A stretch of DNA of 64,000 nt from Candidatus Poribacteria bacterium. GTDB lineage: Bacteria > Poribacteria > WGA-4E > PCPOR2b. The notes under the pieces were generated by a model. That model did not search any database. It was not told the DNA's origin and saw nothing but the letters and a program-made list of their open reading frames with translations. Below are positions 3,317-60,808 of the stretch, one piece after another (within the stretch, counting starts at the first letter, position 1; the number at the start of each line of letters is the position of its first letter). The translations under genes and the position numbers were made by a program. The stretch is taken from positions 139,349 to 203,348 of the forward strand of contig JAJEAL010000134.1 in assembly GCA_022822785.1 (NCBI GenBank), given 5' to 3'.

Positions 3317-3745
3317 CTAGTTCAACGATGGTGCCGCTGCGGTGCCGGAAAGCGCTACTTCCCTCGGCAAAGGCGAAGCGTGGTGATGCACCATCTTCCA
3401 ATCTTCTCCCTCGTACTTGAAAACATTCGTCGCTTGTGCGAAGGATATGCCCATCCTACCGCCGGCGAAGGTGTGGATAGATTCCACGCACGTTACCCAC
3501 GCGAACTGGCTATCGGTATGGACCACGACCTCGCTGGGTTGGATGTGCATTCGATGTGTGTTCTGGAAGATATTTACCCAACTCGCGCGAATCTCCTCCC
3601 AGCCGGTGATTGTTTCCCAATTTGGGTGAACACATTGCACCCAATCCGCTTGTAGCCATACGTTGTCCATCATGTCGATGCTCAGGTTTTGCATTGCCTG
3701 ATAAAAGTTAAGGTTTGCGTCCTCAACTCGTTCTTGCGGTGTCAT
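3317..3745 (-). CDS. SnoaL/NTF2-like fold protein
   Basis: 142 residues with the cone-shaped NTF2-like pattern: an N-terminal helix pair ('RVEDANLNFYQAMQNLSIDMMDNVW'), 'WEEIRASWVNIF', then strands ending 'ATNVFKYEGEDWKMVHHHASPLP', typical of SnoaL-like and ketosteroid-isomerase-like proteins. The family includes small hydrolases, isomerases and binding proteins; no specific reaction can be assigned. The ORF track's 177-aa version starts inside the upstream gene. The ATG at 3745 follows GGAG by 6 nt and lies 2 nt after the upstream stop, so the two genes are probably co-translated. Confidence 0.8.
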   Translation of the reverse strand: MTPQERVEDANLNFYQAMQNLSIDMMDNVWLQADWVQCVHPNWETITGWEEIRASWVNIFQNTHRMHIQPSEVVVHTDSQFAWVTCVESIHTFAGGRMGISFAQATNVFKYEGEDWKMVHHHASPLPREVALSGTAAAPSLN

Positions 3746-3747
3746 TT

Positions 3748-4392
3748 CTATCTCCGTCCGAGCCAACCATCGACGACTGCAAATCCCCAAAAGAGCATGA
3801 GTTGAATGAGTCCGGTAATCTTGAACTGCCAACGGGGTCGAAATCGCCATTGTGCGGTACTATAAATGTCTAGCCCATATTCGCTTTTCCGCACCGAATA
3901 TGTTTGGTAGTGGTCGCTTATCAGCCACCAACTGCCCTCCTTTTCGGTTGAAATTGTTGCTCCTTTATAAATTAGGACTTTATGCTCCTTAAATTGTTGT
4001 ATGAATTCTGCTGAGAGCTCTGCGTTGTCTATTAGATGATTCTCCAAATCTGCGGTAATCCGAAACATGAATTTCCTGTCAGAGGTGTACAAGGGGTAGC
4101 CGCGCCACTGTTTCTGCTCCTCATCTGCCACGGTAGGGTCATCCGTATCTGAATATGTGTCCATTTGTCCTGCGGCAGGTTGTTCATCTAACGATGTTTC
4201 AGGTCGATCGAGCCGGACCAGATCACGCCAACTGGTGACGGGTAATGAATTTGCGTAGATTAACAGTAGTGCGGAGATAACCCCTATAATTAGAATGATG
4301 CCCTTCAGCAGCTTACGCAGGTAGATCTGTCCGAGGCCGGGGATGATCATTGATAACAACATGGCACAGTAAGACCGCTCTGTTTTTGCCAT
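3748..4392 (-). CDS. Small membrane protein with a TM2/DUF5683-like N-terminus
   Basis: 214 residues. The N-terminus 'LLSMIIPGLGQIYLRKLLKGIILIIGVISALLLIYA' has the 'S.iiPGLGQiY..r..kG' signature of TM2/DUF5683-type membrane proteins, followed by a helix. A polar domain of about 130 residues comes next, and a C-terminal helix 'ITGLIQLMLFWGFAVVDGWLG' closes it, so both ends are membrane-anchored. AAGGAG precedes the ATG. Function is not known for this family. It is immediately upstream of the NTF2-like gene, with a 2-nt gap, which suggests one transcript. Confidence 0.72.
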   Translation of the reverse strand: MAKTERSYCAMLLSMIIPGLGQIYLRKLLKGIILIIGVISALLLIYANSLPVTSWRDLVRLDRPETSLDEQPAAGQMDTYSDTDDPTVADEEQKQWRGYPLYTSDRKFMFRITADLENHLIDNAELSAEFIQQFKEHKVLIYKGATISTEKEGSWWLISDHYQTYSVRKSEYGLDIYSTAQWRFRPRWQFKITGLIQLMLFWGFAVVDGWLGRR

Positions 4393-20485: not shown

Positions 20486-20640
20486 AATTATGGTGAATTT
20501 TAGAATTACTTGGACACTCTATACCGGCGCAGTTGGAAACAGCGCCTACCAAATGGGAGACTGGACGGCGCAGTTGGAAACAGCGCCTACCAAACATGTG
20601 AATCGAAAGTGTCTACATATTTATATTGTTCACCATAATT
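20486..20640. mobile_element. 155-bp MITE-like palindromic element with perfect 12-bp terminal inverted repeats
   Basis: AATTATGGTGAA (20486-20497) is exactly inverted at 20629-20640. Inside are two copies of the hairpin unit GGCGCAGTTGGAAACAGCGCC (20526-20546 and 20567-20587), and ACACTC/AGTGTC arms also face each other. Related sequence occurs near 44.8-45.1 kb and 47.2-47.3 kb. No ORF. The remainder of this gap, to 20988, holds only a CCGGGAAATCCCGG palindrome near 20884 and nothing else I can name. Confidence 0.75.
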
Positions 20641-36136: not shown

Positions 36137-36367
36137 TTTCAACCCCGATAAGACCGGGGTTGAAGTACATAACTCCTAAATAAGAGATATATTTATCCAC
36201 CCCCTCATTTTAATTGGAAAGGAATTGCCAACACCAGCTGCCCTGTATCCACCCCAAAAAATAAAAAACCGGTTTGGGAACAGAGGAAGAATGCTCATCT
36301 AAGGTCATTTGTAAATAGGTTGGTGCATACTCCACTTAGAACCAAACAGCCAGCGAAGCAGATGGGG

Positions 36368-36407
36368 CGTTATGCTAAAAGCCTATGATGAGACTTTTAG
36401 CATAACG
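36368..36407. repeat. 17-bp hairpin downstream of small peptide gene 1
   Basis: CGTTATGCTAAAAGCCT (36368-36384) pairs with 36391-36407 at 16 of 17 positions, 6-nt loop. It lies 26 nt past the stop of the peptide gene and recurs after its paralogue at 42691-42730. There is no T-run, so it is not a classic intrinsic terminator; it may protect the mRNA 3' end. Confidence 0.75.
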
Positions 36408-36433
36408 AAAGGGGCTGATTTTACCACTGAAGT

Positions 36434-36646
36434 CTATTCTCCAGTAACAAACTCATGGTCATGGTCGATCCATGTGCAATCCCAGCCGGCTATAGGGCTG
36501 TTGACAATCTTTACTGTGCCGTTCTTCTCGCACCGCCACTGGTCGTGTGCCTGTGCTTCATAGGTAAAGCATGTGATCATTGACACTGCCAACAAGCTTA
36601 GTGCTAAAACGAAGACCATTCCTAGGGTTAATGTTTTTCGTAACAT
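36434..36646 (-). CDS. Small secreted peptide, paralogue 1
   Basis: 70 residues. The leader 'MLRKTLTLGMVFVLALSLLAVSMITCFTYEAQA' is a Sec-type signal peptide with an A-x-A site, leaving a mature peptide of about 37 residues ('HDQWRCEKNGTVKIVNSPIAGWDCTWIDHDHEFVTGE') with two Cys and several Trp, His and Asp. AAGGAG lies 9 nt before the ATG; the track start (36817) is far too early. Leader, Shine-Dalgarno region, 5' hairpin and 3' hairpin are shared with the gene at 42744-42965, while the mature parts barely align. I know no family for it. A lipoprotein reading (Cys of 'MITC') is possible but less likely. Confidence 0.75.
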   Translation of the reverse strand: MLRKTLTLGMVFVLALSLLAVSMITCFTYEAQAHDQWRCEKNGTVKIVNSPIAGWDCTWIDHDHEFVTGE

Positions 36647-36669
36647 TATAGTCAACTCCTTTCGGATTT

Positions 36670-36690
36670 GCAGAAGCAATTGACTTCTGC
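36670..36690 (-). promoter_or_regulatory. Conserved 5'-leader hairpin of small peptide gene 1
   Basis: GCAGAAG/CTTCTGC, 7-bp stem and 7-nt loop, ending 24 nt before the ATG at 36646, just upstream of the Shine-Dalgarno site. The same stem precedes the paralogue at 42988-43014 while loop bases differ. Confidence 0.55.
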
Positions 36691-36949: not shown

Positions 36950-37915
36950 ATGCAACGGAGATACGATCTCGCACATTTGATTGTAGCTAGTGTTGTCGTC
37001 TTGGATCTAATGCTATTGATGGTATGCGTTGAAGCACAGGCACAGATTGCCTTCATGTCTGATAGGGATTGGCACTGGGAAATCTATGTGATGGACGACG
37101 ATGGTGGTAACCAGCGAAACCTTTCTAATAGTCCTGGTGATGACAAGCATCCCTCATGGTCTCCTGACGGTAAGCGGATTGCTTTTACGGCTGATAGGAG
37201 TGATAAGGATTGGAACCGGCAAATCTACGTGATGGACGCCGATGGGGGTAATCAGCGAAACCTTTCTAACAATGACTTTGATGACATGGAACCCTCATGG
37301 TCTCCTGACGGTAAACACATTGTCTTTGTTTCCATTAGGGATGGAAACAGGGAAATCTACGTGATGAATGCCGATGGGGGCAAGCCTAAAAACCTGTCTA
37401 ACAATCCATTTCCTGATCTGAACCCCTCGTGGTCACCTGACGGTAAACGCATTATCTTTATTTCCATTGGAAATGGAGACTTTGACATCTTCGTTATGGA
37501 CGCCGATGGAGGGGATCGGCGAAACCTCACCAATAGTGACCGTAGTGACGAGGATCCTGCATGGTCGCCGGACGGTAAACGGATTGCTTTTACTTCCTTG
37601 AGGGCTGGGGGAAACCGGGACATCTATGTGATGGACGCCGATGGAGGAAATCAGCGAAATCTCACCAATCATCCCGATGTTGACTTCCACCCCTCATGGT
37701 CGCCCGATGGTAAAAGCATTGCCTTTGTGTCGAATAGGAACAGGGATTTGAATCGAGACATCTACGTGATGGATGCCGATGGTGGTAATCTACGAAATCT
37801 CACCAATCATCCCGATGATGACGAAGTTCCTGCGTGGCTTAACCCTGTTCTTTCAGTTTCTCGCGCCGGCAAAAAGTTTACAATATGGGGACGGCTCAAA
37901 CAGGTCGACCGATAG
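36950..37915 (+). CDS. Secreted six-bladed TolB-like beta-propeller, paralogue 1
   Basis: 321 residues from the ATG at 36950, which follows GGAGG; the track start is a TTG eight codons earlier. Signal peptide 'LIVASVVVLDLMLLMVCVEAQA', then six repeats of 'IAF.SDRdg..eIYVMDADGGN.RNLtNnp.dD..PsWSPDGKr' (PD40/WD40-like, as in TolB), enough for one closed propeller. It ends in a separate tail 'SVSRAGKKFTIWGRLKQVDR' shared with paralogue 2. Propellers of this type bind proteins or ligands in the periplasm. No Tol-Pal genes are nearby, so it is not TolB itself. Confidence 0.9.
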   Translation: MQRRYDLAHLIVASVVVLDLMLLMVCVEAQAQIAFMSDRDWHWEIYVMDDDGGNQRNLSNSPGDDKHPSWSPDGKRIAFTADRSDKDWNRQIYVMDADGGNQRNLSNNDFDDMEPSWSPDGKHIVFVSIRDGNREIYVMNADGGKPKNLSNNPFPDLNPSWSPDGKRIIFISIGNGDFDIFVMDADGGDRRNLTNSDRSDEDPAWSPDGKRIAFTSLRAGGNRDIYVMDADGGNQRNLTNHPDVDFHPSWSPDGKSIAFVSNRNRDLNRDIYVMDADGGNLRNLTNHPDDDEVPAWLNPVLSVSRAGKKFTIWGRLKQVDR

Positions 37916-37990
37916 CTGCAAACAGTGTTTGCTGAGGTTGGCATAAACGCCAAGGAAAGGACAAAGACTTCATGCGATTAGGAGTTACGT

Positions 37991-38109
37991 GCTTGCGTTT
38001 GTAATAGCGCAATTCATTACGCGTCAGATACCAATAACATCGCGCTGAAGTATCTGGCTCAATTCACCAAACACTACCTCGCGACACAATGGGTATTCGA
38101 TAAATCGCC
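37991..38109. repeat. Long inverted repeat, right copy (partner 36021-36136)
   Basis: Reverse complement of the left copy with scattered substitutions; with it the pair encloses the small-peptide and propeller genes. The following 38110-38299 contains a diverged CCCGGTTTATCGGAG unit and the Shine-Dalgarno site of the next gene, but no gene. Confidence 0.8.
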
Positions 38110-38299
38110 TGACGACAAACCTAAGATCTTACTCTAGTTGCCCGTTTCTTAATCCCGGTTTATCGGAGATTCATCGAGCGTTGGAAAGAATATCCCGCAA
38201 CGTTGATTCACTGAAGGGCAAGTCGAAGACTCTCGGAGCGGAGGCTTTAAGTGTTCAACAAAGAGTAAAATCACTTTGAAAACACAGGAGGAATAACAA

Positions 38300-39334
38300 A
38301 TGCAACGAAAGGACAAGCTCACATATATGATTTTAGCTAGCGTTGTCGTGTTAGGGTTGATGCTGCTGATGGTAGTCGGTGAAGTACAGGCACGGATTGC
38401 CTTTATGTCTGATAGGGATGGGAACGCAGAAATCTACGTTATGGCTGCCGATGGTGGCAATCAACTAAACCTCACCAATCATCCCGATGGAGACGTTAAT
38501 CCTGCATGGTCCCCTGACGGTAAACGGATTGCCTTCATGTCCGATAGGGATGGGCACGTTGACATACACGATTTTCCTAATTATGAAATCTACGTTATGG
38601 CTGCCGATGGTGGCAATCAACTAAACCTCACTAATGATCTTGGTGATGACAGGTCTCCCTCATGGTCCCCCGACGGTAAACACATCGTATTTTCGTCTAA
38701 TCGGGATATGGATAGGTTTGAGGCTCATAACATTGAAATCTACGTGATAGACGCCGATGGTGCGAACCTACGAAGACTCACTAACAATCTCACTGAGGAT
38801 GAGTATCCCTCATGGTCCCCCGACGGTAAACGGATTGCCTTCAGTGCCCGTAGGGACGGACACTTTGAAAACGATTTTGGAATTACTTATGAAATTTATG
38901 TGATGGACGCTGATGGTGGTAATGAACAGAGGCTCACTGAAAATCGCAATAATGACTGGAATCCCTCATGGTCCCCTGACGGCAAACGGATTGCCTTCAG
39001 TTCTGATAGGAAGGGGGATGTTGTAAACTGGGACATCTACGTTATGGACGCCGATGGTGGTAATCCTCAAAACCTCACTGAAAATCGCGTTTATGACTCT
39101 TCACCTTCATGGTCTCCTGATGGTGAACGGATTGTATTTTCCTCTAATAGGGATAGGGATAGGATCTTTAACTCTGATATCTATGTGATGGACGCCGATG
39201 GGGGGAATCTTCAAAATATTACCAATAGTCTCCATAGTGACGGTAGTCCTGCATGGCTGAACTCACCTTTTTCCGTTTCTCCTGCGGGCAAGCAGTTTAC
39301 GATGTGGGGACGACTCAAACAGGTTGATCAATAA
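38300..39334 (+). CDS. Secreted six-bladed TolB-like beta-propeller, paralogue 2
   Basis: 344 residues. Signal peptide 'MILASVVVLGLMLLMVVGEVQA' and six 'IYVM.ADGGN..nLT' blades, several with longer inter-strand loops than paralogue 1 (for example 'DGHVDIHDFPNYEIYVM'). It ends 'SVSPAGKQFTMWGRLKQVDQ'. GGAGGAATAACAA precedes the ATG. The blades within the gene are more alike than expected from a single old propeller, a sign of recent repeat expansion or exchange. It lies 384 nt after paralogue 1 in the same direction but outside the inverted-repeat bracket. Confidence 0.9.
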   Translation: MQRKDKLTYMILASVVVLGLMLLMVVGEVQARIAFMSDRDGNAEIYVMAADGGNQLNLTNHPDGDVNPAWSPDGKRIAFMSDRDGHVDIHDFPNYEIYVMAADGGNQLNLTNDLGDDRSPSWSPDGKHIVFSSNRDMDRFEAHNIEIYVIDADGANLRRLTNNLTEDEYPSWSPDGKRIAFSARRDGHFENDFGITYEIYVMDADGGNEQRLTENRNNDWNPSWSPDGKRIAFSSDRKGDVVNWDIYVMDADGGNPQNLTENRVYDSSPSWSPDGERIVFSSNRDRDRIFNSDIYVMDADGGNLQNITNSLHSDGSPAWLNSPFSVSPAGKQFTMWGRLKQVDQ

Positions 39335-40355: not shown

Positions 40356-40843
40356 GGTGGATTTTTAGGTATTTGAGGGAATTATTGTCCCGATTTTATC
40401 GGGATTCAGAGCAATCTGAATCAGGATTTTCAGGTTTCTTAATCCCGATTTATCGGGGATTAAAGGATTTTCGGGATAGAACACGGAACGTCAAATCCCG
40501 CAAGTTCCGATTTTATCGGAATGCTCCCTGATAGGTCGGGACAGGCTGGAACGGCACGAGGATCCTTGATGTATCGGGACGTGATAGGGGGTTGGGTGCA
40601 TTTAGCCCCAGAGGGGCGACAGGTCTATAGCCGGGCGATAAGGCCCTCCTTCCAAGCCCCAGAGGGGCGACATGTGTATGGCAACGAAATGCTGTGCCGC
40701 TGTGAGGCGGTTTGCTTTGAATATCGATTTTATTGGGGCAATAATCCGTGCAATCCGCGTCCTCTGTTTAATCTGTGGTTCAGACGTTTCACGCATCATG
40801 TTTCCCGTTATATCGCTTCTATGACATAACACTCCGCTAGCAA
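40356..40843. repeat. Repeat-dense intergenic region with REP-like palindromes
   Basis: No gene in 488 nt. It contains CCCGATTTTATCGGG followed by ATTCAGAGCAATCTGAAT (40389-40420), CCCGATTTATCGGG (40444-40457), a diverged third unit near 40507, two copies of AGCCCCAGAGGGGCGACA (from about 40604 and 40656), and an inverted copy of the TTGCTTTGAAT..CGATTTTAT unit at about 40711-40739. Several repeat families have piled up here. The 102-aa and 76-aa track ORFs are shadows. Confidence 0.75.
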
Positions 40844-42565: not shown

Positions 42566-42690
42566 TGGGAAGAGGATTGTGCAACGATAGAGACTAGATT
42601 TGGTTGTTTTTCTCGTTCAAGAATCTGTTATATTTGCTTTGCCAATATCCGCTTTATATTAGAACCAAACAGCCAGCTAAACAAATCGGT

Positions 42691-42730
42691 CGTTATGCTA
42701 AAAGTCTATGGCAAGACTTTTAGCATAACG
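42691..42730. repeat. 17-bp perfect hairpin downstream of small peptide gene 2
   Basis: CGTTATGCTAAAAGTCT pairs perfectly with its inverse across a 6-nt loop, 13 nt past the stop of the peptide gene. About 30 nt on the far side (AGAACCAAACAGCCAGC) are also shared with the region at 36338. Confidence 0.78.
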
Positions 42731-42743
42731 AAGATGTCTGATT

Positions 42744-42965
42744 TTACTGTGTATACCAACAACAATGGAGACCGTCTTGATCCGTGTGGAAACCTTCCCC
42801 CGCAAAAAAGTTATGTCCCGCGTCATGCCAGCAACGCCAGTGACCGTGACCGTCGTTCCCGACGTTTGCCTCAGCTTCATAGGTAAAACATGTAATCATT
42901 GACACAGCTAACAGACTTAGTGCGAAAATAAAAACCATTCCGAGGATCAATGCTTTCCGTAACAT
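42744..42965 (-). CDS. Small secreted peptide, paralogue 2
   Basis: 73 residues. Leader 'MLRKALILGMVFIFALSLLAVSMITCFTYEAEA' is nearly identical to paralogue 1; the mature part 'NVGNDGHGHWRCWHDAGHNFFAGEGFHTDQDGLHCCWYTQ' is rich in His, Gly, Trp and Cys and hardly resembles paralogue 1 apart from '(H)WRC'. AAAGGAGTTAACC precedes the ATG. The His/Cys content would suit metal binding or an extracytoplasmic peptide held by disulfides. It lies alone between the GT39-like and SgrR-like genes. No family recognised. Confidence 0.75.
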   Translation of the reverse strand: MLRKALILGMVFIFALSLLAVSMITCFTYEAEANVGNDGHGHWRCWHDAGHNFFAGEGFHTDQDGLHCCWYTQ

Positions 42966-42987
42966 TACGGTTAACTCCTTTCAGATT

Positions 42988-43014
42988 TGCAGAAGCAAAC
43001 AATCCACTTCTGCA
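42988..43014 (-). promoter_or_regulatory. Conserved 5'-leader hairpin of small peptide gene 2
   Basis: TGCAGAAG/CTTCTGCA, 8-bp stem and 11-nt loop, 23 nt before the ATG. The counterpart before paralogue 1 is at 36670-36690. Confidence 0.55.
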
Positions 43015-44830: not shown

Positions 44831-45127
44831 TCATGGTAGATTTTAGAATTACTTAGACGTGATGAGCGAACCAAGTCACGAACCTTGCTCGCCGAGTTAC
44901 GGCACACGGCGCCCCGATGAATCGGGATTCAAAGCAATGTGCCTACTACTATTAATGTCTACTTATTTCTATAATTCACTATAATTGGGCACTCTGTACC
45001 GGGGATAGGAAAACCCGGGCTATCACCCCGGTAGGTGCGGTTTCTAACCGCATCGGCGCAGTTGGAAACAGCGCCTACCAAACATGGGGAGCGAAAGTGT
45101 CTATCTGTTTTTAGAATCCACTATAGT
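44831..45127. mobile_element. Composite MITE-like repeat region
   Basis: Its ends (TCATGGTAGATTTTAGAA and TTTTTAGAATCCACTATAG) are imperfect inverted repeats related to the 20486-20640 element. Inside are CCCGATGAATCGGG plus ATTCAAAGCAATGTG (44913-44941), an internal end-like AATTCACTATAATT near 44981, GGTAGGTGCGGTTTCTAACCGCA (45031-45053) and GGCGCAGTTGGAAACAGCGCC (45055-45075). It looks like one element inserted beside or into another. Its right end overlaps the 3' end of the radical-SAM remnant. Confidence 0.65.
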
Positions 45128-47170: not shown

Positions 47171-47330
47171 TACCGATAAAATCCCCGATTGCATCGGGGC
47201 AGGCAGAACGGCACGGGAGACCGGTAGGTGCGGTTTCTAACCGCACCGCATCGGCGCAGTTGGAAACAGCGCCTACCATACACGGGGAACGAAAGCGTCT
47301 ATTCGTTTTTTAGGATTTACTATGATTTAC
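47171..47330. repeat. Repeat cluster, third locus of the palindromic family
   Basis: Holds CCCCGATTGCATCGGGG, GGTAGGTGCGGTTTCTAACCGCA (47223-47245), GGCGCAGTTGGAAACAGCGCC (47253-47273) and one element end (TTTTTTAGGATTTACTATGATTTA). Only one end resembles the 20.5-kb element. It separates the epimerase from the converging Eis-like gene. Confidence 0.65.
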
Positions 47331-48598: not shown

Positions 48599-48609
48599 AC
48601 CTACCCCTC

Positions 48610-48639
48610 CCCGATAAAATCGAGATTCAAAGCAACTTG
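48610..48639. repeat. REP-like unit upstream of the Eis-like gene
   Basis: CCCGATAAAATCGAG followed by ATTCAAAGCAACTTG, the same unit found inside hemC. It separates the ccmD stop from the Eis-like start. Confidence 0.7.
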
Positions 48640-53414: not shown

Positions 53415-55427
53415 TCATACCTCCCCTTTGACAGGCTTCTCACAGATTGCGACCAGTCCGCCAATCATCATGATGGCGACGCCAAACCAGACAACATTGA
53501 CAAGCGGATTGTGATAAACTTGAACGGAGACGATTCCACCCGAATCCACATGGGCGGGCACGTTTTGTGGCAGGGGACCTAATGCAATATAGAGGTCGTT
53601 TAAGCCGAGATGGCGTATAGACGATTCAATGGTATCTTGTTCGCCTTGACCGGCTTTATGATAAAATCCACGCGCTGGACGCATGGTCCCCATTGACTTT
53701 CCATCTTTTTCAACAGCGAAAACAACGCCGCCGAGCGAAAAATTGGGGTGTTCCTCCTGAAACGCATCTTGCATCGTGAGCGTGTAGTTATCAATCTCCA
53801 TTGACTCCCCAAGCTGTAGCCCCTTCGATTCTAACAGGAAATAACCCTTAGATCCCAGGATTCCAACGTATACGATTACGATACCGATATGGACAATGTA
53901 ACCGCCGTATCGCCGTTTATTGCGTTGGATGAGTTGCCCGAGCCCATCAAAGAGTGAAGTTTCGCTTCGTTTGGCTCGTAGCTTCGATCCACGATAAAAT
54001 TCATCGAAGATGGCGACAAGGACAAAAACGCTGGCGAACACACAGAGCGTGGAGTAGATTGGCGTGGTGTGCCCTTTCCACGCGAGGTATGCCCATGTAA
54101 GTATGCCACCGATTACCCCACACACAATCGGTTTGGCAAACATCCTTTTGAAGTTACTCGGCGTCAATTTTTTCCATGAGATAATTGGACCGGCTCCGGT
54201 GAGCAGTAGGAGCAGCAGACCGGGGATGATGACTACCTGATTGAAAAACTCCTCTGGGACCGCTGCTTTTTCTCCGGTGACCTGTTCTGTGATGATGGGC
54301 CACAGCGTTCCCCAAAGGATAATCAGTGTTAGCCCCACAAGCATCCAGTTGTTTAGGAGGAAAGCACTTTCGCGAGAGAGGAGAGATTCGAGGCGATTGG
54401 GGCTTTTTAGGTCGTTCCAACGATAAGCGAGAAGTCCAAGGACACCAAGTGTGGAGAGGCAGATGAACCCTAGGAAATATCCCCCGATGTCGGATTGTGC
54501 AAATGCGTGAACGGAGGTGATTATCCCGCTGCGGGTGATGAAAGTGCCCAAGAGCGTGAACTCAAACGCAAGCGTAATCAGGATGAGGTTCCAGAGCTTG
54601 AGCATGTTCCGCTTCTCTTGAATCATCACCGAGTGGAGATAAGCTGTGCCGAGCAGCCACGGCATGAAAGAGGCGTTTTCAACGGGATCCCATGCCCAAT
54701 AGCCGCCCCATCCGAGTTCACGATATGCCCAATTTCCGCCGAGGGTAATGCCAACCGTCAACACCAGCCAAGATGCCATCATCCAGCGCCGGGATCTATT
54801 AATCCATTCGCTTCCAATCTTTCCAGCAGCAAGTGCACCGACAGCGAAAGCGAACGGCACGGTTAGACTGACGAAGCCAACATACAGTGCTGGGGGATGA
54901 AAAACCATGCTCGGTGTTTGGAGCAGCGGATTCATGCCTGCACCGTCCCGAGCCACTGCACCATTTGGCAAGCGGTCAAGTGGATTATAGACGCCTTCGA
55001 CTAATCCCGTTACAAGGATGATAAAGAAGAGTTGTACAATTGCCATGGGGATGAGCGCATAATCTGCCAGGTGATCCGTTGCCCGTCGGTTTGTCCATAC
55101 GACTAAGGCGCCAAAAAGGGTCACGAGCCAAAGCCAAAACAGGAGAGAGCCGGACATCCGTCCCCACAACGCAGTGACTTTGTACATTAAGGGTTGATCA
55201 TAGCTAGAAACCTCGACGACATACCGCATCGAGAAATCGTTTGTCACAAAACCGTAGATTAGGGCGCCCGTTGCAAGCGTTATTAAAGCGAAGGTCGCAA
55301 GGATCCCTTTTCTGCCACTGATGACGGCGTTGTAGTTGCTATGGTGCACCCCCATCCAGAGCATCATCAGTGCCCACAGACAGGAGAACACTGAAAGCCA
55401 TATTGCTGCCTGTCCTAATTCTGCCAT
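53415..55427 (-). CDS. ccmF: Cytochrome c heme lyase CcmF
   Basis: 670 residues with a dozen or more hydrophobic segments. The WWD motif reads 'WGGYWAWDPVENASFMPWLLGTAYLHSVM', with 'FHPPALYVGFVSLTVPFA' and 'TFITRSGIITSVHAFA' as further hallmarks. The C-terminal third carries the large periplasmic domain. CcmF with CcmH transfers heme from CcmE to apocytochrome c. The ATG at 55427 follows GGAGAGACAG; the track start is 17 codons early. Confidence 0.95.
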   Translation of the reverse strand: MAELGQAAIWLSVFSCLWALMMLWMGVHHSNYNAVISGRKGILATFALITLATGALIYGFVTNDFSMRYVVEVSSYDQPLMYKVTALWGRMSGSLLFWLWLVTLFGALVVWTNRRATDHLADYALIPMAIVQLFFIILVTGLVEGVYNPLDRLPNGAVARDGAGMNPLLQTPSMVFHPPALYVGFVSLTVPFAFAVGALAAGKIGSEWINRSRRWMMASWLVLTVGITLGGNWAYRELGWGGYWAWDPVENASFMPWLLGTAYLHSVMIQEKRNMLKLWNLILITLAFEFTLLGTFITRSGIITSVHAFAQSDIGGYFLGFICLSTLGVLGLLAYRWNDLKSPNRLESLLSRESAFLLNNWMLVGLTLIILWGTLWPIITEQVTGEKAAVPEEFFNQVVIIPGLLLLLLTGAGPIISWKKLTPSNFKRMFAKPIVCGVIGGILTWAYLAWKGHTTPIYSTLCVFASVFVLVAIFDEFYRGSKLRAKRSETSLFDGLGQLIQRNKRRYGGYIVHIGIVIVYVGILGSKGYFLLESKGLQLGESMEIDNYTLTMQDAFQEEHPNFSLGGVVFAVEKDGKSMGTMRPARGFYHKAGQGEQDTIESSIRHLGLNDLYIALGPLPQNVPAHVDSGGIVSVQVYHNPLVNVVWFGVAIMMIGGLVAICEKPVKGEV

Positions 55428-55452
55428 AACATCTGTCTCTCCTTCGAGGGGC

Positions 55453-55899
55453 TCAATAATCGCTTGTATCGGCTCCACCGGTTTGTGCTGTCATTCCGTC
55501 AGCTGCTTCATATTTCGATGCACATTTCGTTTGAAGTTTGGTCGCGACGATTAGATTTTCGGAGGCGTTATATTTGCCTTGGACAAAAACGTTTCCACCG
55601 TCCTTGAAGTTGTCGGGTCTGAGTTTATTCGCATAGATTACATTAACCTTTGCTTTTCCATCACGATCTCGAACCGCAAAAGCGAGCTTAAACGCTGTTG
55701 GATCCCATTGGGTGGTCCCTTCCGCAATCAACCCATCCACTTGGATGCTTCTATTGTGAACTTCTTGTGCGTGTGCAACGAGCGCGTCGGGCGTGAAGTG
55801 TCTCATGCTCGTTTGTTGTACCCCTGCGACAACGAGGAATGTCATCGCAGCCGCTAAAATGAAGCTCGCGATGATAATTTTGACTCTTCTTCGATTCAT
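55453..55899 (-). CDS. ccmE: Heme chaperone CcmE, Cys (CxxxY) type
   Basis: 148 residues: N-terminal membrane anchor 'IIIASFILAAAMTFLVVAGV', an OB-fold beta-barrel ('SIQVDGLIAEGTTQWDPTAFKLAFAVRD.DGKAKVNVIYANKLRPDNFKDGGNVFVQGKYNASENLIVATKL'), and a heme-binding tail 'QTKCASKYEAADG'. Position 126 is Cys, four before Tyr130, where proteobacterial CcmE has His (HxxxY). The CxxxY form is known from Desulfovibrio and archaea. It overlaps the cobA-hemD stop by 4 nt (ATGA), so heme-precursor and cytochrome genes are translationally joined here. Confidence 0.93.
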   Translation of the reverse strand: MNRRRVKIIIASFILAAAMTFLVVAGVQQTSMRHFTPDALVAHAQEVHNRSIQVDGLIAEGTTQWDPTAFKLAFAVRDRDGKAKVNVIYANKLRPDNFKDGGNVFVQGKYNASENLIVATKLQTKCASKYEAADGMTAQTGGADTSDY

Positions 55900-57434
55900 G
55901 TTTGCTTCTCCTTTGATGTATAGAACTTGACAATTTCTTCCGCGAGCGATTCGACAGATGCCTTTTTCGCAACGATGTCTACCGTTAGTCCATGTGCTTT
56001 CACGGTTGCGGCGGTCGAGGGGCCAATGACCGCAATGTGGGTACTGGCGAGTAGAACGGGGGGTGGATGTGAGTTGAACATCTCAAGGAAGTTAGTAACA
56101 GTTGACGAGCTGGTAAATGTTACCATGTCAATGCGCCCGCTGTGTAGGTCCCCTTCGATTGTCTCACGTCCTTCCGCCCCGGCTTTCATCGTTTCGTAGA
56201 GTGGAATTGCCTCAACGATGGCGCCCCTATCTTGTAAACCGTTTGGTAAATCATCAGCCGCAATCGAAGCGCGCGGTAGCAGAATCTTTTGTCCTTCCAC
56301 CCCTTCTAATTCCGCTGCAAGGACCGCACCGCGATATTGCGACGGAACGTAATCCGCGCGAATCCCAATCTGATCCAATGCCGCTACAGTTTTTTGTCCT
56401 ACCGCACAAATACGAGCGTTACCCAACGACCGTGCATCTTTGCCCTTTTCTCGCAGGTAGCGATAGAAATAATCTACAGCGTTGACGCTAGTAAAAATAA
56501 TCCATTTGTACGTTGCAAGCTGAGCGATTGCCCGATCCAATACGACGTTGTTGGGAATTGGCAGCGTTTCAATCGTCGGGAATTGGATGACTTCAGCGCC
56601 GTAAGATTCAAGGCATTCCGCGAAGTCGCTGGCTTGTGCCCGAGCGCGGGTGACGGTAATCCGCCGACCGAAGAGCGGTTTTCGATCAAACCAACGCAGC
56701 TGTTCGCGCAAGGCGTTGACATCGCCAATGACGATTGCCGCGGGATTGCGAAAATTAACAGCTGCTGCCCTTTGGGCGATATTCACGAGAGGCCCCTCAA
56801 CAGTTTTTTGTTGTGGGGTTGTCCCCCAATGAACAAGGGCAGTCGGCGTATCAGGTGGGCGTCCATGTTGAATCAGACGCGCTGCGATTTCCCGTAAGTG
56901 TCCGACCCCCATAAGAATAACTAGCGTATCCACGCCTGTGGCGAGCTGTTCCCAACGGATTGGTGAATTGGCTTTCAATGCCGCCGAATGCCCTGTGACA
57001 AACGCGATGGACGATGAATAGTGTCGATGCGTCAAGGGGATACCTGCATACGCTGGTGCAGCGATTGCCGAGGTGATGCCAGGCACGACCTCAAAATCAA
57101 TACCCGCTTCCACAAGTGTTAGCGCCTCTTCTCCGCCTCTCCCAAATATAAACGGGTCCCCCCCTTTAAGTCGGACAACCGTTTTGCCTGTCCGCGCGTG
57201 CTGAATCATTAGGCGATCGATTTCCGCTTGACGTTGTTGCTGCTCGCCTATCATTTTTCCGCCATAGATCTTTTTCGTATGGGGCGGGCAGTGTTCAAGG
57301 AGTTTGACGTTAATAAGCAGGTCATAGATTACGACATCCGCGCTTTGCAGACACTCAATCCCTTTAAGCGTAATCAGTTTTGGATCGCCCGGTCCCGCTC
57401 CAACAAGATAGACTTTACCATTTATGACAGCCAT
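55896..57434 (-). CDS. Fused uroporphyrinogen-III C-methyltransferase / uroporphyrinogen-III synthase
   Basis: 512 residues. The N-terminal ~250 are SUMT/CobA ('[35 protein letters not shown]', '[22 protein letters not shown]', '[22 protein letters not shown]'), which methylates uroporphyrinogen III to precorrin-2 for siroheme or B12. The rest is HemD ('[35 protein letters not shown]', '[17 protein letters not shown]', '[16 protein letters not shown]'), which cyclises hydroxymethylbilane. This fusion is common in anaerobes and several phyla. It follows hemC with a 10-nt gap, so pathway order is kept. Confidence 0.96.
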
Positions 57435-57444
57435 TACTCACGCT

Positions 57445-58386
57445 TTATGTTCCACTTTGAAGTTTATGTGCCCCATTCTGAATCAACTTTGTTGCAAGGT
57501 TGACCGCTAACTCGTGGGCACCCGCCAAATCATCCCGATAAGATTGGGATTCAAGGCAACCTGATAGCCGCTCTAGCAGTCGATGCTTTCCGTCAGGGCT
57601 GCACACAGTAGCGGTCAGATGAAGTGCCTTATCGTTCAGCTGTGCGTTTACGCCAATCGGAACTTGACATCCACCACCCAATTCACCCAATACGGTCCTC
57701 TCGATAAGCACTTCAGTTTCGCTATGGCTATCGTTAATTGCGTCTAACAGCGTCTTAATTTCCGAGTCATCTTCGCGTGTTTCTACCCCCAATGCGCCTT
57801 GTCCAGCGGCGGGGACCATCTGATTAATCTCAAAATACGCTGCAATAATTTCTTCGCCGATCAGTCGTTTAATCCCCGCCGCAGCGAGGATGATCCCATC
57901 AAGGTCCGTTTCATGCAGTTTGCGAAGGCGTGTGTCGAGATTGCCGCGAACATCCACAACCTGCAAATCGGGACGCAGGTGTAAAAGTTGACATTTACGG
58001 CGTGGACTTGTCGTTCCAATTTTTGCTCCTTTTGGGAGTTGATCGAGAAGCAAATCAGATTTTGTAACTAGCACGTCGCGAGGATCTTCACGGGCAGGGA
58101 TAGCGGCGATACAAAGTCCATCGGGCAGATCTGTCGGCAGGTCTTTCATGCTGTGGACGGCGAGGTCAATGGTGCCATCCAAAAGGGCGTTTTCGATTTC
58201 CTTGGTAAAGACCCCTTTACCGAGACCAACGAGGGAGCGATCTAGAATTTTGTCCCCGGTCGTCTTGATGACTTTGCATTCGATTGAGCGGTCGGGAAAG
58301 TGACGGTGCAGACATTTCCTCACATATTCCGTTTGCCAGAGAGCGAGTTGGCTACCGCGTGTGCCGATGGTGATAGTTTGTTTCAT
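57445..58386 (-). CDS. hemC: Hydroxymethylbilane synthase with a repeat-derived 9-residue insertion
   Basis: 313 residues from the ATG at 58386 (GGGAG 5 nt upstream); the track start is 30 codons early. 'KQTITIGTRGSQLALWQ', 'HSMKDLPTDLPDGL', 'GTTSPRRKCQLLHLRPDL' and 'RGNLDTRLRKL' are HemC signatures. Cys240 in 'LGGGCQVPIGV' carries the dipyrromethane cofactor. It polymerises four porphobilinogens. Residues 277-285 (CLESQSYRD) are extra: without them the stretch from 'PDG' to 'NGA' has the same length as E. coli HemC as I recall it. Those nine codons are the palindromic repeat (see the separate entry). Confidence 0.96.
   Translation of the reverse strand: MKQTITIGTRGSQLALWQTEYVRKCLHRHFPDRSIECKVIKTTGDKILDRSLVGLGKGVFTKEIENALLDGTIDLAVHSMKDLPTDLPDGLCIAAIPAREDPRDVLVTKSDLLLDQLPKGAKIGTTSPRRKCQLLHLRPDLQVVDVRGNLDTRLRKLHETDLDGIILAAAGIKRLIGEEIIAAYFEINQMVPAAGQGALGVETREDDSEIKTLLDAINDSHSETEVLIERTVLGELGGGCQVPIGVNAQLNDKALHLTATVCSPDGKHRLLERLSGCLESQSYRDDLAGAHELAVNLATKLIQNGAHKLQSGT
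57532..57558 (-). repeat. 27-nt REP-like unit inserted in frame in hemC
   Basis: CCCGATAAGATTGGG followed by ATTCAAGGCA, the same unit as the intergenic ones at 40389, 44913 and 48610. The boundary falls exactly on codons 277-285, in the surface C-terminal domain. Confidence 0.75.
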
Positions 58387-58510
58387 ATGGGCTCCCGTTC
58401 CGCATAGCGGAATCCTCGCCTTGTGGGACAAATCTCCCGACAGTTCAGTCGTGACCGCCTCATGTAGACACTGCAACTGCGTTGTTTCGGTTGAAGGCGG
58501 TCAAGTGATG

Positions 58511-58651
58511 CTATTTAGTCTTCAATTCCTGAAGATCAGATTCCAGCTGTTCTATCCGTTTTTGGAACCTCGCTGTATGAACGAAAGCGAGGAGACCATA
58601 GATGAAGCCAGTTGCGCCAAGCACCATTCCAATAATTCCGAATGCCTCCAT
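58511..58651 (-). CDS. 46-residue membrane peptide between hemA and hemC
   Basis: Too short for the ORF track. Translation: 'MEAFGIIGMVLGATGFIYGL' then 'LAFVHTARFQKRIEQLESDL' then 'QELKTK'. A single hydrophobic helix (~4-24) is followed by a basic turn and an amphipathic coiled coil. AAGGA lies 7 nt before the ATG, and the gene begins 20 nt after the hemA stop. The layout of helix plus coiled coil resembles small CcmD/HemX-like membrane partners, but no family is certain. It may anchor or regulate HemA or HemC. Confidence 0.72.
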   Translation of the reverse strand: MEAFGIIGMVLGATGFIYGLLAFVHTARFQKRIEQLESDLQELKTK

Positions 58652-58671
58652 TGTGGATTCCTTTATCAGCT

Positions 58672-59982
58672 TTATTCGGTCGTGTCTGTCTCTTCCAAAC
58701 CGAACAGTTCCTGCAGTGTACGGACATACTGTAGATGGTCGCCATCACTATCGTCGGTCGCCTCAATAAGGTCCGGATTCAAAGCAATCTGACGTAAATT
58801 TTTTGTCGGTTGATGCAACAATTTTTTGATAATCGATTGTGTCATAGCTTCGACCATTTTCTGCTGTTTGGAGGTCAGCTGTGCTTTGTCAAGACAGGTT
58901 CCTAACTCTCTTGAAGCTACCCCCTGAAACTGCTGATGGAGCGCTTTAATCGTTGGATTGACTTCAAAGGTCTGTAGCCGTGACTGAAATTTTGCGACCT
59001 CCTCTTTGACAATCTGCGTTGCGATTTCCGCTTCCTGCTCCCGGTCTTCGAGGTTGGCAGCGACCACCGCCTCAAGGTCATCGATGTTATACAGGAAAGC
59101 ATTGTCCACTTTGCTGACTTCAGGGTCGATATCACGGGGGACAGCGATGTCGATCAGGAACATATAGCGATGCTTCCGCTGTTTCATAATTTCTGCAAGT
59201 GCAGGGCGATCGATCAGGTAATGCGGAGCGTCAGTTGAGCTGATTACGATGTCCGCTTCGACGAGGAAGCTCAGATCGGCGTCGTATGCTAAGGGGATTC
59301 CGTTAAATTTTTTGGCGATGTCAACTGCCCGTTGATAGGTTCGGTTCGCCACGATGACTTGGGAAACGTTGTTCTTCACAAGGTGTCGCGCGGTTAATTC
59401 GCTCATCTCGCCGGCACCGATGATAGCAACCGTTTTATCTTCTAAACTCTGAAAGATTTTCTTGGCAAGTTCAACCGCAGCATAACTGATGGACACCGCA
59501 CCGGCAGCGATATTGGTCTCGGTCCGGACTCGCTTGCCGACGCTTATCGCTTTGGCAAACAGGCGGTTGAGTATATCGCTGGTCGCTCCAGCAGCAAGTG
59601 ATTGGGCATACGCCTCTTTGATCTGACCGAGAATCTGGGGTTCGCCGACTACCATAGAATCGAGGCTTGCAGTCACATTGAAGAGATGACGAACCGCATC
59701 AACGTCTTGATGGCTATATGTAAACTTCTTCAGCTCTTGCGGTTCGATTCGATGGTAATTTGATAAAAATTCAGAAAGCACGGCACCGCCATCTTTGCTG
59801 TGGATCACGGCGTAGATTTCGACGCGATTGCAGGTTGAGAGAATTGTGGCTTCCCTAACGTCGGGCTGTTCGGTTAAAAGTTGGAGAGCTTCGGTAAGCT
59901 GGCTTTCAGAAAACGACAACTTTTCTCGAAAATCGAGCGGTGCAATATGATGACTGGTACCGACAGTGATAATTTGGTTCAT
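58672..59982 (-). CDS. hemA: Glutamyl-tRNA reductase
   Basis: 436 residues. First step of the C5 pathway: reduces glutamyl-tRNA to glutamate-1-semialdehyde. The catalytic Cys51 is in 'ATILSTCNRVEIYAV'; 'FNVTASLDSMVVGEPQILGQIKEAYAQS' and 'SISYAAVELAKKIF' follow; the NADPH domain is 'TVAIIGAGEMSELTARHLVKNNVSQVIVANRTY'. The C-terminal dimerisation domain ends 'LRQIALNPDLIEATDDSDGDHLQYVRTLQELFGLEE', longer than usual; part of it is encoded by a repeat-like stretch. No clear Shine-Dalgarno; 10 nt after the CcsA/HemX-like gene. Confidence 0.96.
   Translation of the reverse strand: MNQIITVGTSHHIAPLDFREKLSFSESQLTEALQLLTEQPDVREATILSTCNRVEIYAVIHSKDGGAVLSEFLSNYHRIEPQELKKFTYSHQDVDAVRHLFNVTASLDSMVVGEPQILGQIKEAYAQSLAAGATSDILNRLFAKAISVGKRVRTETNIAAGAVSISYAAVELAKKIFQSLEDKTVAIIGAGEMSELTARHLVKNNVSQVIVANRTYQRAVDIAKKFNGIPLAYDADLSFLVEADIVISSTDAPHYLIDRPALAEIMKQRKHRYMFLIDIAVPRDIDPEVSKVDNAFLYNIDDLEAVVAANLEDREQEAEIATQIVKEEVAKFQSRLQTFEVNPTIKALHQQFQGVASRELGTCLDKAQLTSKQQKMVEAMTQSIIKKLLHQPTKNLRQIALNPDLIEATDDSDGDHLQYVRTLQELFGLEETDTTE
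58766..58792 (-). repeat. Probable REP-like unit inside hemA
   Basis: TCCGGATTCAAAGCAATCTGA matches the right half of the unit, but the palindromic left half is diverged. Read in a different frame from hemC it encodes 'RQIALNPDLIE' near the C-terminus. It could be an old insertion or chance. Confidence 0.5.
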
Positions 59983-59992
59983 TTGTTAAATA

Positions 59993-60808
59993 TTAAAATG
60001 CGTGTATACTTGGTAAAAAGAGATTAACGCCTACATAGGTAAACAGCACAGCAGCCAAACCGATAATTGCTGAATAGGCGGTTTTGCGACCGCGCCACCC
60101 GAAAACTTGACGAATGCTGAGCTGTAACACATAGACAAGCCAGGTGGCGATTGTGAAGATTACCTTTGAATCGACCCATGTCCATTTGACCTCTTTAACA
60201 TATTGAGTCCAAAGTGCTCCAATAAGAATGCCCATCGTCATCAGAATTACGCCGACGAGAATACACTTGTGTCCGAGTTCATCGGATCTGCCAAGCGCGG
60301 GCAGAAGATTGTAGATAAGCGTGTGCTGCTTCTCACGAATTTTCCTCTCTTCAATCAGGTACATTAGTCCAAAGCCAAACGCGGCGACGAATGCGGCGTA
60401 AGACAAAAAAATAACAGCAGAATGGGCGATAAGCCAGTAGTTTTGCAAATAAGCGGGAATTGCAGTATTCTCTTGAGTCTGTAACGTATAAGCGACCAAG
60501 GTGGCTATGAACGCAGCGGGAACGACAAAGACCCCAATCGTGCGTAGATGAGTCAGATGTGCGATACACAGATAAATCAAAATGATCGCCCACGCGAGGA
60601 AGGAGGTTGAGTCATACCAGTGTGCCATCAGGTGTCCCGCGTGCTGCCAACGCAGAAGAATAAAAGCTGAGTGCAGCACAAAACCGCCTATCGTTACCCA
60701 ATAGCCGTACTTTGCGACCCTTTGATTCCCGGTGCTCAGAAAAAGAATATGAAGTATGCATCCCGCCAAATAGACGAGCAAAAGCGTGTGAAAAAATAGT
60801 GAGTTCAT
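59993..60808 (-). CDS. CcsA/HemX-like membrane protein
   Basis: 271 residues, about eight hydrophobic segments. 'YWLIAHSAVIFLSYAAFVAAFGFGLMYLIEERKIR' and 'GALWTQYVKEVKWTWVDSKVIFTIATWLVYVLQLSIRQVFGWRGRK' match the CcsA/CcmC/HemX superfamily. The WWD-like loop ('VKWTWVDSK') and the conserved His residues suggest heme or precursor handling. Immediately before hemA this is usually HemX, which lowers GluTR levels in Bacillus. Its cytochrome-assembly relatives are also in this cluster, so a role in either process is possible. Confidence 0.88.
   Translation of the reverse strand: MNSLFFHTLLLVYLAGCILHILFLSTGNQRVAKYGYWVTIGGFVLHSAFILLRWQHAGHLMAHWYDSTSFLAWAIILIYLCIAHLTHLRTIGVFVVPAAFIATLVAYTLQTQENTAIPAYLQNYWLIAHSAVIFLSYAAFVAAFGFGLMYLIEERKIREKQHTLIYNLLPALGRSDELGHKCILVGVILMTMGILIGALWTQYVKEVKWTWVDSKVIFTIATWLVYVLQLSIRQVFGWRGRKTAYSAIIGLAAVLFTYVGVNLFLPSIHAF

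Follow-up and report, generated by a model that had tools for sequence, protein, structure and literature searches.

A nine-residue segment in the HemC protein of this uncultured Poribacteria bacterium, represented by a metagenome-assembled genome, is, with a probability that we place at roughly 0.9, one copy of a mobile palindromic element that is non-autonomous, belongs to one genus of the phylum and survives in genes when it is frame-neutral. The unit has spread through the genomes of this genus of uncultured Poribacteria, and copies sit in essential enzymes, among them RNA polymerase and enzymes of haem synthesis, where each adds nine residues and leaves the gene unbroken.

The hemC gene (porphobilinogen deaminase, or hydroxymethylbilane synthase) lies on the minus strand at positions 57445-58386 of the window, by which we mean the whole stretch of 64,000 nucleotides that was analysed. 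It has an ATG start, and its product matched the Pfam domains Porphobil_deam (PF01379) and Porphobil_deamC (PF03900) as well as entries in the PDB. The 27-nt palindromic element occupies positions 57533-57559 on the minus strand (the equivalent codon-wise placement is 57532-57558), where it stands 3' of CAGG and reads TTGCCTTGAATCCCAATCTTATCGGGA in the coding-strand sense and TCCCGATAAGATTGGGATTCAAGGCAA on the plus strand. It adds the residues CLESQSYRD at HemC codons 277-285, the peptide across the insert being LERLSGCLESQSYRDDLAGAHELAVN. The original prediction, made from the letters of the window, was that homologues would show a clean gap of nine residues here. We aligned 30 HemC sequences, from the same genus through other genera, families and orders, and the nine residues were missing from G001, a member of the same genus, and from all 26 more distant genomes, empty sites being found in G001, G006, G008 and others. 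A HMMER comparison with the solved PBGD structure 5h6o placed a 9-residue gap at the same position, and the main claim was therefore borne out. HemC of G002 and G003 contains 19 extra residues, encoded by a 57-nt form inserted at the same base as the 27-nt element. This form comprises two hairpins (TTGCTTTGAATC-TCCCGATAAATCGGGATTCTCGGAACGGAA-CCAATCTGATCGGGG in the letters of G003) and starts with TTGCTTTGAATC in both genomes. The hemC copy matched the repeat model with E=4.6e-7, having itself belonged to the training set of the model, and its stem pairs have decayed (z=-0.3 in a single-sequence DNA fold).

Comparison of filled and empty sites set the bounds of the unit at 27 nt, TTGCTTTGAATCCCGATNNNATCGGGN in the coding-strand sense. 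It consists of TTGCTTTGAAT, then a 6-bp hairpin, CCCGAT-NNN-ATCGGG, and then one more base, and lies directly 3' of a tetranucleotide, so that the consensus runs C-A-A/G-G, TTGCTTTGAAT, hairpin (target joined to unit, CAAG-TTGCTTTGAATCCCGATCTTATCGGGG). The tetranucleotide is CAAG, CAGG, CCAG or CAAA in half of the 134 collected copies, with C at position -4 in 104/134 and G at position -1 in 91/134. Target-site duplication was absent from alignments of filled and empty sites, and there are no terminal inverted repeats spanning the whole unit. The consensus unit folded into a hairpin (z=-3.3, single-sequence DNA fold); RNAalifold returned zero pairs on the repeat alignment, a result that probably reflects misalignment between two-base and three-base loops. 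An RNA function was also considered, and no Rfam match was found at window positions 55000-60500. The 26-nt pattern CCCGATNNNATCGGGATTCAAAGCAA, allowing up to three mismatches, gave 36 matches in the organism's own whole genome as opposed to 0 in the reversed control. The repeat family lies far beyond chance expectation.

The segment in hemC had been equated with three intergenic sequences beginning at 40389, 44913 and 48610. All three are copies, on the minus strand at 40388-40414 (27 nt), 44912-44937 and 48609-48635 (27 nt, just 5' of an open reading frame), but the second is 26 nt long rather than 27, has a 2-nt loop and lies within an outer hairpin, GGCACA/TGTGCC. A diverged intergenic copy is present on the plus strand at 40712-40737 (model match, E=1.1e-4). 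A second intragenic copy, overlooked in the original prediction, lies at 58761-58787 on the minus strand. It encodes IALNPDLIE within hemA, the neighbour of hemC (glutamyl-tRNA reductase, 58672-59982, minus strand; Pfam GlutR_N, Shikimate_DH and GlutR_dimer). A SnoaL-like gene at 3413-3871 (minus strand) has an empty site here, and its orthologues in G002 and G003 hold a 27-nt insert. Other repeats were seen in the window. Another dispersed family, CCGGTAGGTGCGGTTTCTAACCGCACCG with CGGCGCAGTTGGAAACAGCGCCTACCA, occurs at 20525-20637, 45028-45125 and 47221-47323, with copies 71-100% alike. Two blocks 6.3 kb apart are about 85% identical (36336-36424 and 42659-42747, and also 36544-36679 and 42863-42998); they contain an internal hairpin, TCGTTATGCTAAAAG...CTTTTAGCATAACGA, and are possibly a duplicated insertion element. 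Positions 37046-39256 hold about twelve repeats of 130-156 nt that encode the WD40/TolB-like propeller motif IYVMDADGGN.

The flanks of pattern and model hits were scored by codon usage, and with hemC, hemA and the long forms added this gave a partial census of 18 intragenic sites. Empty orthologues exist for 13 of the 18, an insertion at L076 being left out of the 13 as its gap was not clean. At eleven of these 13 sites, filled and empty genes differ by exactly 27 nt: hemC (27 nt here, 57 in G002 and G003), hemA, rpoC (RNA_pol_Rpb1_5; peptide across the insert VRFIERPRSDQDSNQPVEAN), genes with the domains BNR_2, SnoaL_3, Peptidase_S58 and NAD_binding_2, an Eco57I-type methylase, a protein judged NHL-like by eye, and two proteins with no Pfam match. 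In the remaining two, an NTP_transferase gene and L136, the genomes differ: the site is empty in some, holds 27 nt in others, or has grown to 57 or 87 nt. The expectation that the same unit would be found inside other coding sequences as insertions of a multiple of three was thus confirmed, with lengths of 27, 57 and 87 nt and with empty orthologues. In-frame 57-nt forms also occur in an orthologous gene of G004 and G002 (L244:1500 and L249:1500), near the C-terminus at position 358 of 391. The hemA site is filled in G001, G003 and G005, decayed in G006, and empty in G002, G008 and G012. This copy is old, being decayed in G006, a genome that has no recognisable copies. It is exactly absent from G002 and present in the close sister G003 (91% protein identity), which suggests that the copy was precisely lost or that an empty allele replaced it.

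All intragenic copies have lengths that are multiples of three. Copies of 26 nt, with the 2-nt loop, made up 0/15 of those in genes against 32/106 elsewhere (Fisher p=0.011), and the longer copies measured 57 or 87 nt in genes against 46, 46, 47, 56 and 67 nt in intergenic DNA. The intergenic copies of 26, 46, 47, 56 and 67 nt rule out an intrinsic length of a multiple of three, indicating that selection, and not the design of the unit, preserves the frame. Of the six frames of the unit, one is closed by TGA (LL*IPILSG), and certain loop sequences close another. The frame that reads VALNPDxIG was used at 12 of 17 intragenic sites, where roughly 0.30 was expected from the target codon phase (p about 7e-4); as this expectation is rough, the excess is only suggestive of selection for a harmless peptide. 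Judging from the conservation of the host genes, the inserted peptides are probably tolerated rather than selected for.

Outside genes, copies often occupy the loops of other hairpin repeats. When the flanks of intergenic copies were joined, stems of at least 5 bp formed in 32/106 cases against 5.6 expected from re-paired flanks; the corresponding figure for copies in genes was 0/15. Uninterrupted versions of several of these hairpins exist in the DNA that was searched. Counted with up to three mismatches, for example, GGCGGGGCAAG^ATGCCCCGCCTAC occurred at 21 empty and 7 filled sites, and CGCTCCAG^CGGAGCG at 12 empty and 9 filled sites. Together with the junction stems, these uninterrupted versions indicate that the unit inserts into the loops of other repeats, although the count of hairpin targets is inflated where composite hairpins themselves spread afterwards. 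At four loci (L285, L268, L280 and L281, near 1200), intergenic copies hold a second hairpin, CCTGTCCCGATTTATCGGG, inside the first, showing growth by hairpin within hairpin.

The distribution of the family was followed with R1, a 35-position sequence model of the repeat. The six genus members, G000 to G005, gave 71, 121, 84, 84, 71 and 74 matches; five of these genomes are draft assemblies in many contigs and one (G001) is complete, with a single chromosome of 5.16 Mb. Two sister genera gave 16 (G008) and 4 (G007) matches; G006 and the sampled members of other families gave none. When 85 genomes from across the phylum were searched, matches were confined to the family of the organism, with zero in the other 77 genomes beyond the genus and its two sister genera. 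A search of named genomes found exact matches in 40 stretches, all from Candidatus Poribacteria, and full-text literature searches found no paper on the family.

These observations describe a unit that inserts 3' of a CAAG-like tetranucleotide with no duplication of the target. Most insertions fall between genes, frequently into the loops of existing hairpin repeats, and some into genes, where a copy persists if it adds a multiple of three bases overall and is read in an open frame; each such copy thereby adds nine residues (19 or 29 for the expanded forms). Movement would proceed via single-stranded DNA, with a transposase supplied in trans. The fixed border, the lack of duplication, the hairpin and the liking for hairpin loops point to the handling of single-stranded DNA, as in IS200/IS605 and REP systems. 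Our tentative best guess is that the mobilising enzyme is of the Y1/HUH type (IS200/IS605 or RAYT-like). Two results weigh against the overall reading: an autonomous partner was not found, copies being no denser near Y1_Tnp genes than elsewhere, and when the complete chromosome was halved at dnaA the copies showed no replication-strand bias (21/12 versus 26/14), although the GC skew was too weak to place the origin.

The unit may be a non-autonomous derivative that an IS200/IS605-type TnpA, or some other single-strand nuclease, mobilises in trans, a reading that is plausible at somewhat less than even odds. Insertion 3' of a short fixed sequence with no duplication, the subterminal hairpin and the preference for hairpin loops are all consistent with it. 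However, no IS with the ends of the unit was found among the Y1_Tnp loci examined, a subset of the IS of the genus, and the strongest Y1 hits (>120 bits) are absent from G002, G003 and G005, all of which are rich in the unit. One locus of G001 (L101), with three hairpins around a TnpA gene, resembled an IS with matching ends and was rejected, as two of the copies proved to be inside adjacent genes.

Copies could instead arise with no transposase, if replicating hairpins exchanged sequence through template switching or gene conversion. Nested hairpins and the stepwise growth of 27, 57 and 87 nt at the same sites would be expected from such a process, and the search for a partner enzyme yielded none; yet the defined ends and the fixed 4-nt target at scattered, dissimilar sites fit enzymatic insertion better, and we consider template switching rather unlikely.

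The original prediction had called the unit REP-like, a fair label for its form only, as no RAYT link emerged. That the unit is a REP in the strict sense, mobilised by a resident RAYT (TnpA-REP), appears improbable. Y1_Tnp genes, including RAYT-like ones, do occur in genomes of the genus, and the unit bears a hairpin and a border tetranucleotide and causes no target duplication. Against this, its density near 30 Y1_Tnp loci equalled the background (about 1 per 7 kb in both), with no enrichment at RAYT-like genes; the hairpins that flank RAYT genes form a separate family, GCCCCAGCGGGGCGACATGT / CGCTCCAGCGGAGCG; and the unit has neither the GTAG nor the CGTC tag of described REPs (PMC3733652). 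The RAYT-like Y1 genes at L106, L119, L120, L111, L105 and L107 (around 1300-2000) have inverted REP-like hairpins on both sides, GCCCCAGCGGGGCGACATGTNTATAGA or CGCTCCAGCGGAGCGCAATGTG, and these loci probably represent a REPtron outside the GTAG/CGTC classes. Finally, the segment in HemC might be a common lineage-specific linker whose likeness to the repeat is accidental, or a fault of assembly. Nothing was found in favour of this idea, and it is refuted to the point of being negligible by the model match, by the two-hairpin version that G002 and G003 carry at this base, and by 12 more genes alike in several independent assemblies, the complete chromosome included.

Rickettsia provides the best-known case of protein-coding palindromes. 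The Rickettsia palindromic elements (RPEs) are mobile palindromes found both between genes and in frame within unrelated housekeeping genes (PMC10969869, PMC3733652), and the Poribacteria unit likewise occurs between genes and in frame in 13 unrelated genes with empty orthologues. An analogy with RPEs had been proposed at the outset; it stands as regards selfish palindromes that survive in frame, but the unit is not a member of that family, being 27 nt long, from Poribacteria and unrelated in sequence, whereas the first RPE families measure about 100-150 bp and come from Rickettsia. The unit also differs in its CAAG-like target and its insertion into other hairpins. REPs are hairpin repeats of 20-40 nt in high copy number, mostly intergenic and sometimes intragenic (PMC3733652). 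The unit resembles the GTAG/CGTC REPs in being short, hairpin-forming, of high copy number and mostly intergenic with some copies in genes; it differs in the lack of the terminal tag and of a RAYT link, and dominant inverted dimers were not seen. It shares with IS200/IS605 derivatives the duplication-free insertion 3' of a short fixed target and the hairpin near the end, but is far shorter, with one hairpin, and a parent with matching ends was not found among the loci examined. Like DDE MITEs it is short, non-autonomous and of high copy number; unlike them it has neither terminal inverted repeats of the whole unit nor target-site duplication. The unit thus stands apart in its host phylum, its sequence and size, its tag and target, and its nesting, and the comparisons place it outside RPEs, GTAG/CGTC REPs and DDE MITEs; it works like an RPE but is not one. 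It represents an unrelated, shorter family with the same outcome as RPEs and intragenic REPs.

One genus thus offers the ends, the target, exact empty sites and several insertion ages of such an element, including copies in rpoC and in two adjacent haem genes, and therefore allows a direct test of how selfish repeats join conserved enzymes. The unit is also a handle for seeking the enzyme that moves REP-sized DNA. A more specific possibility, which we regard as doubtful, is a dedicated single-strand system that inserts the 27-nt hairpin 3' of a CAAG-like target, favours hairpin loops, removes the unit exactly and lets it grow in 30-nt steps in genes. If such a system exists, proteins of this genus would gain and lose nine-residue modules as a routine type of mutation.
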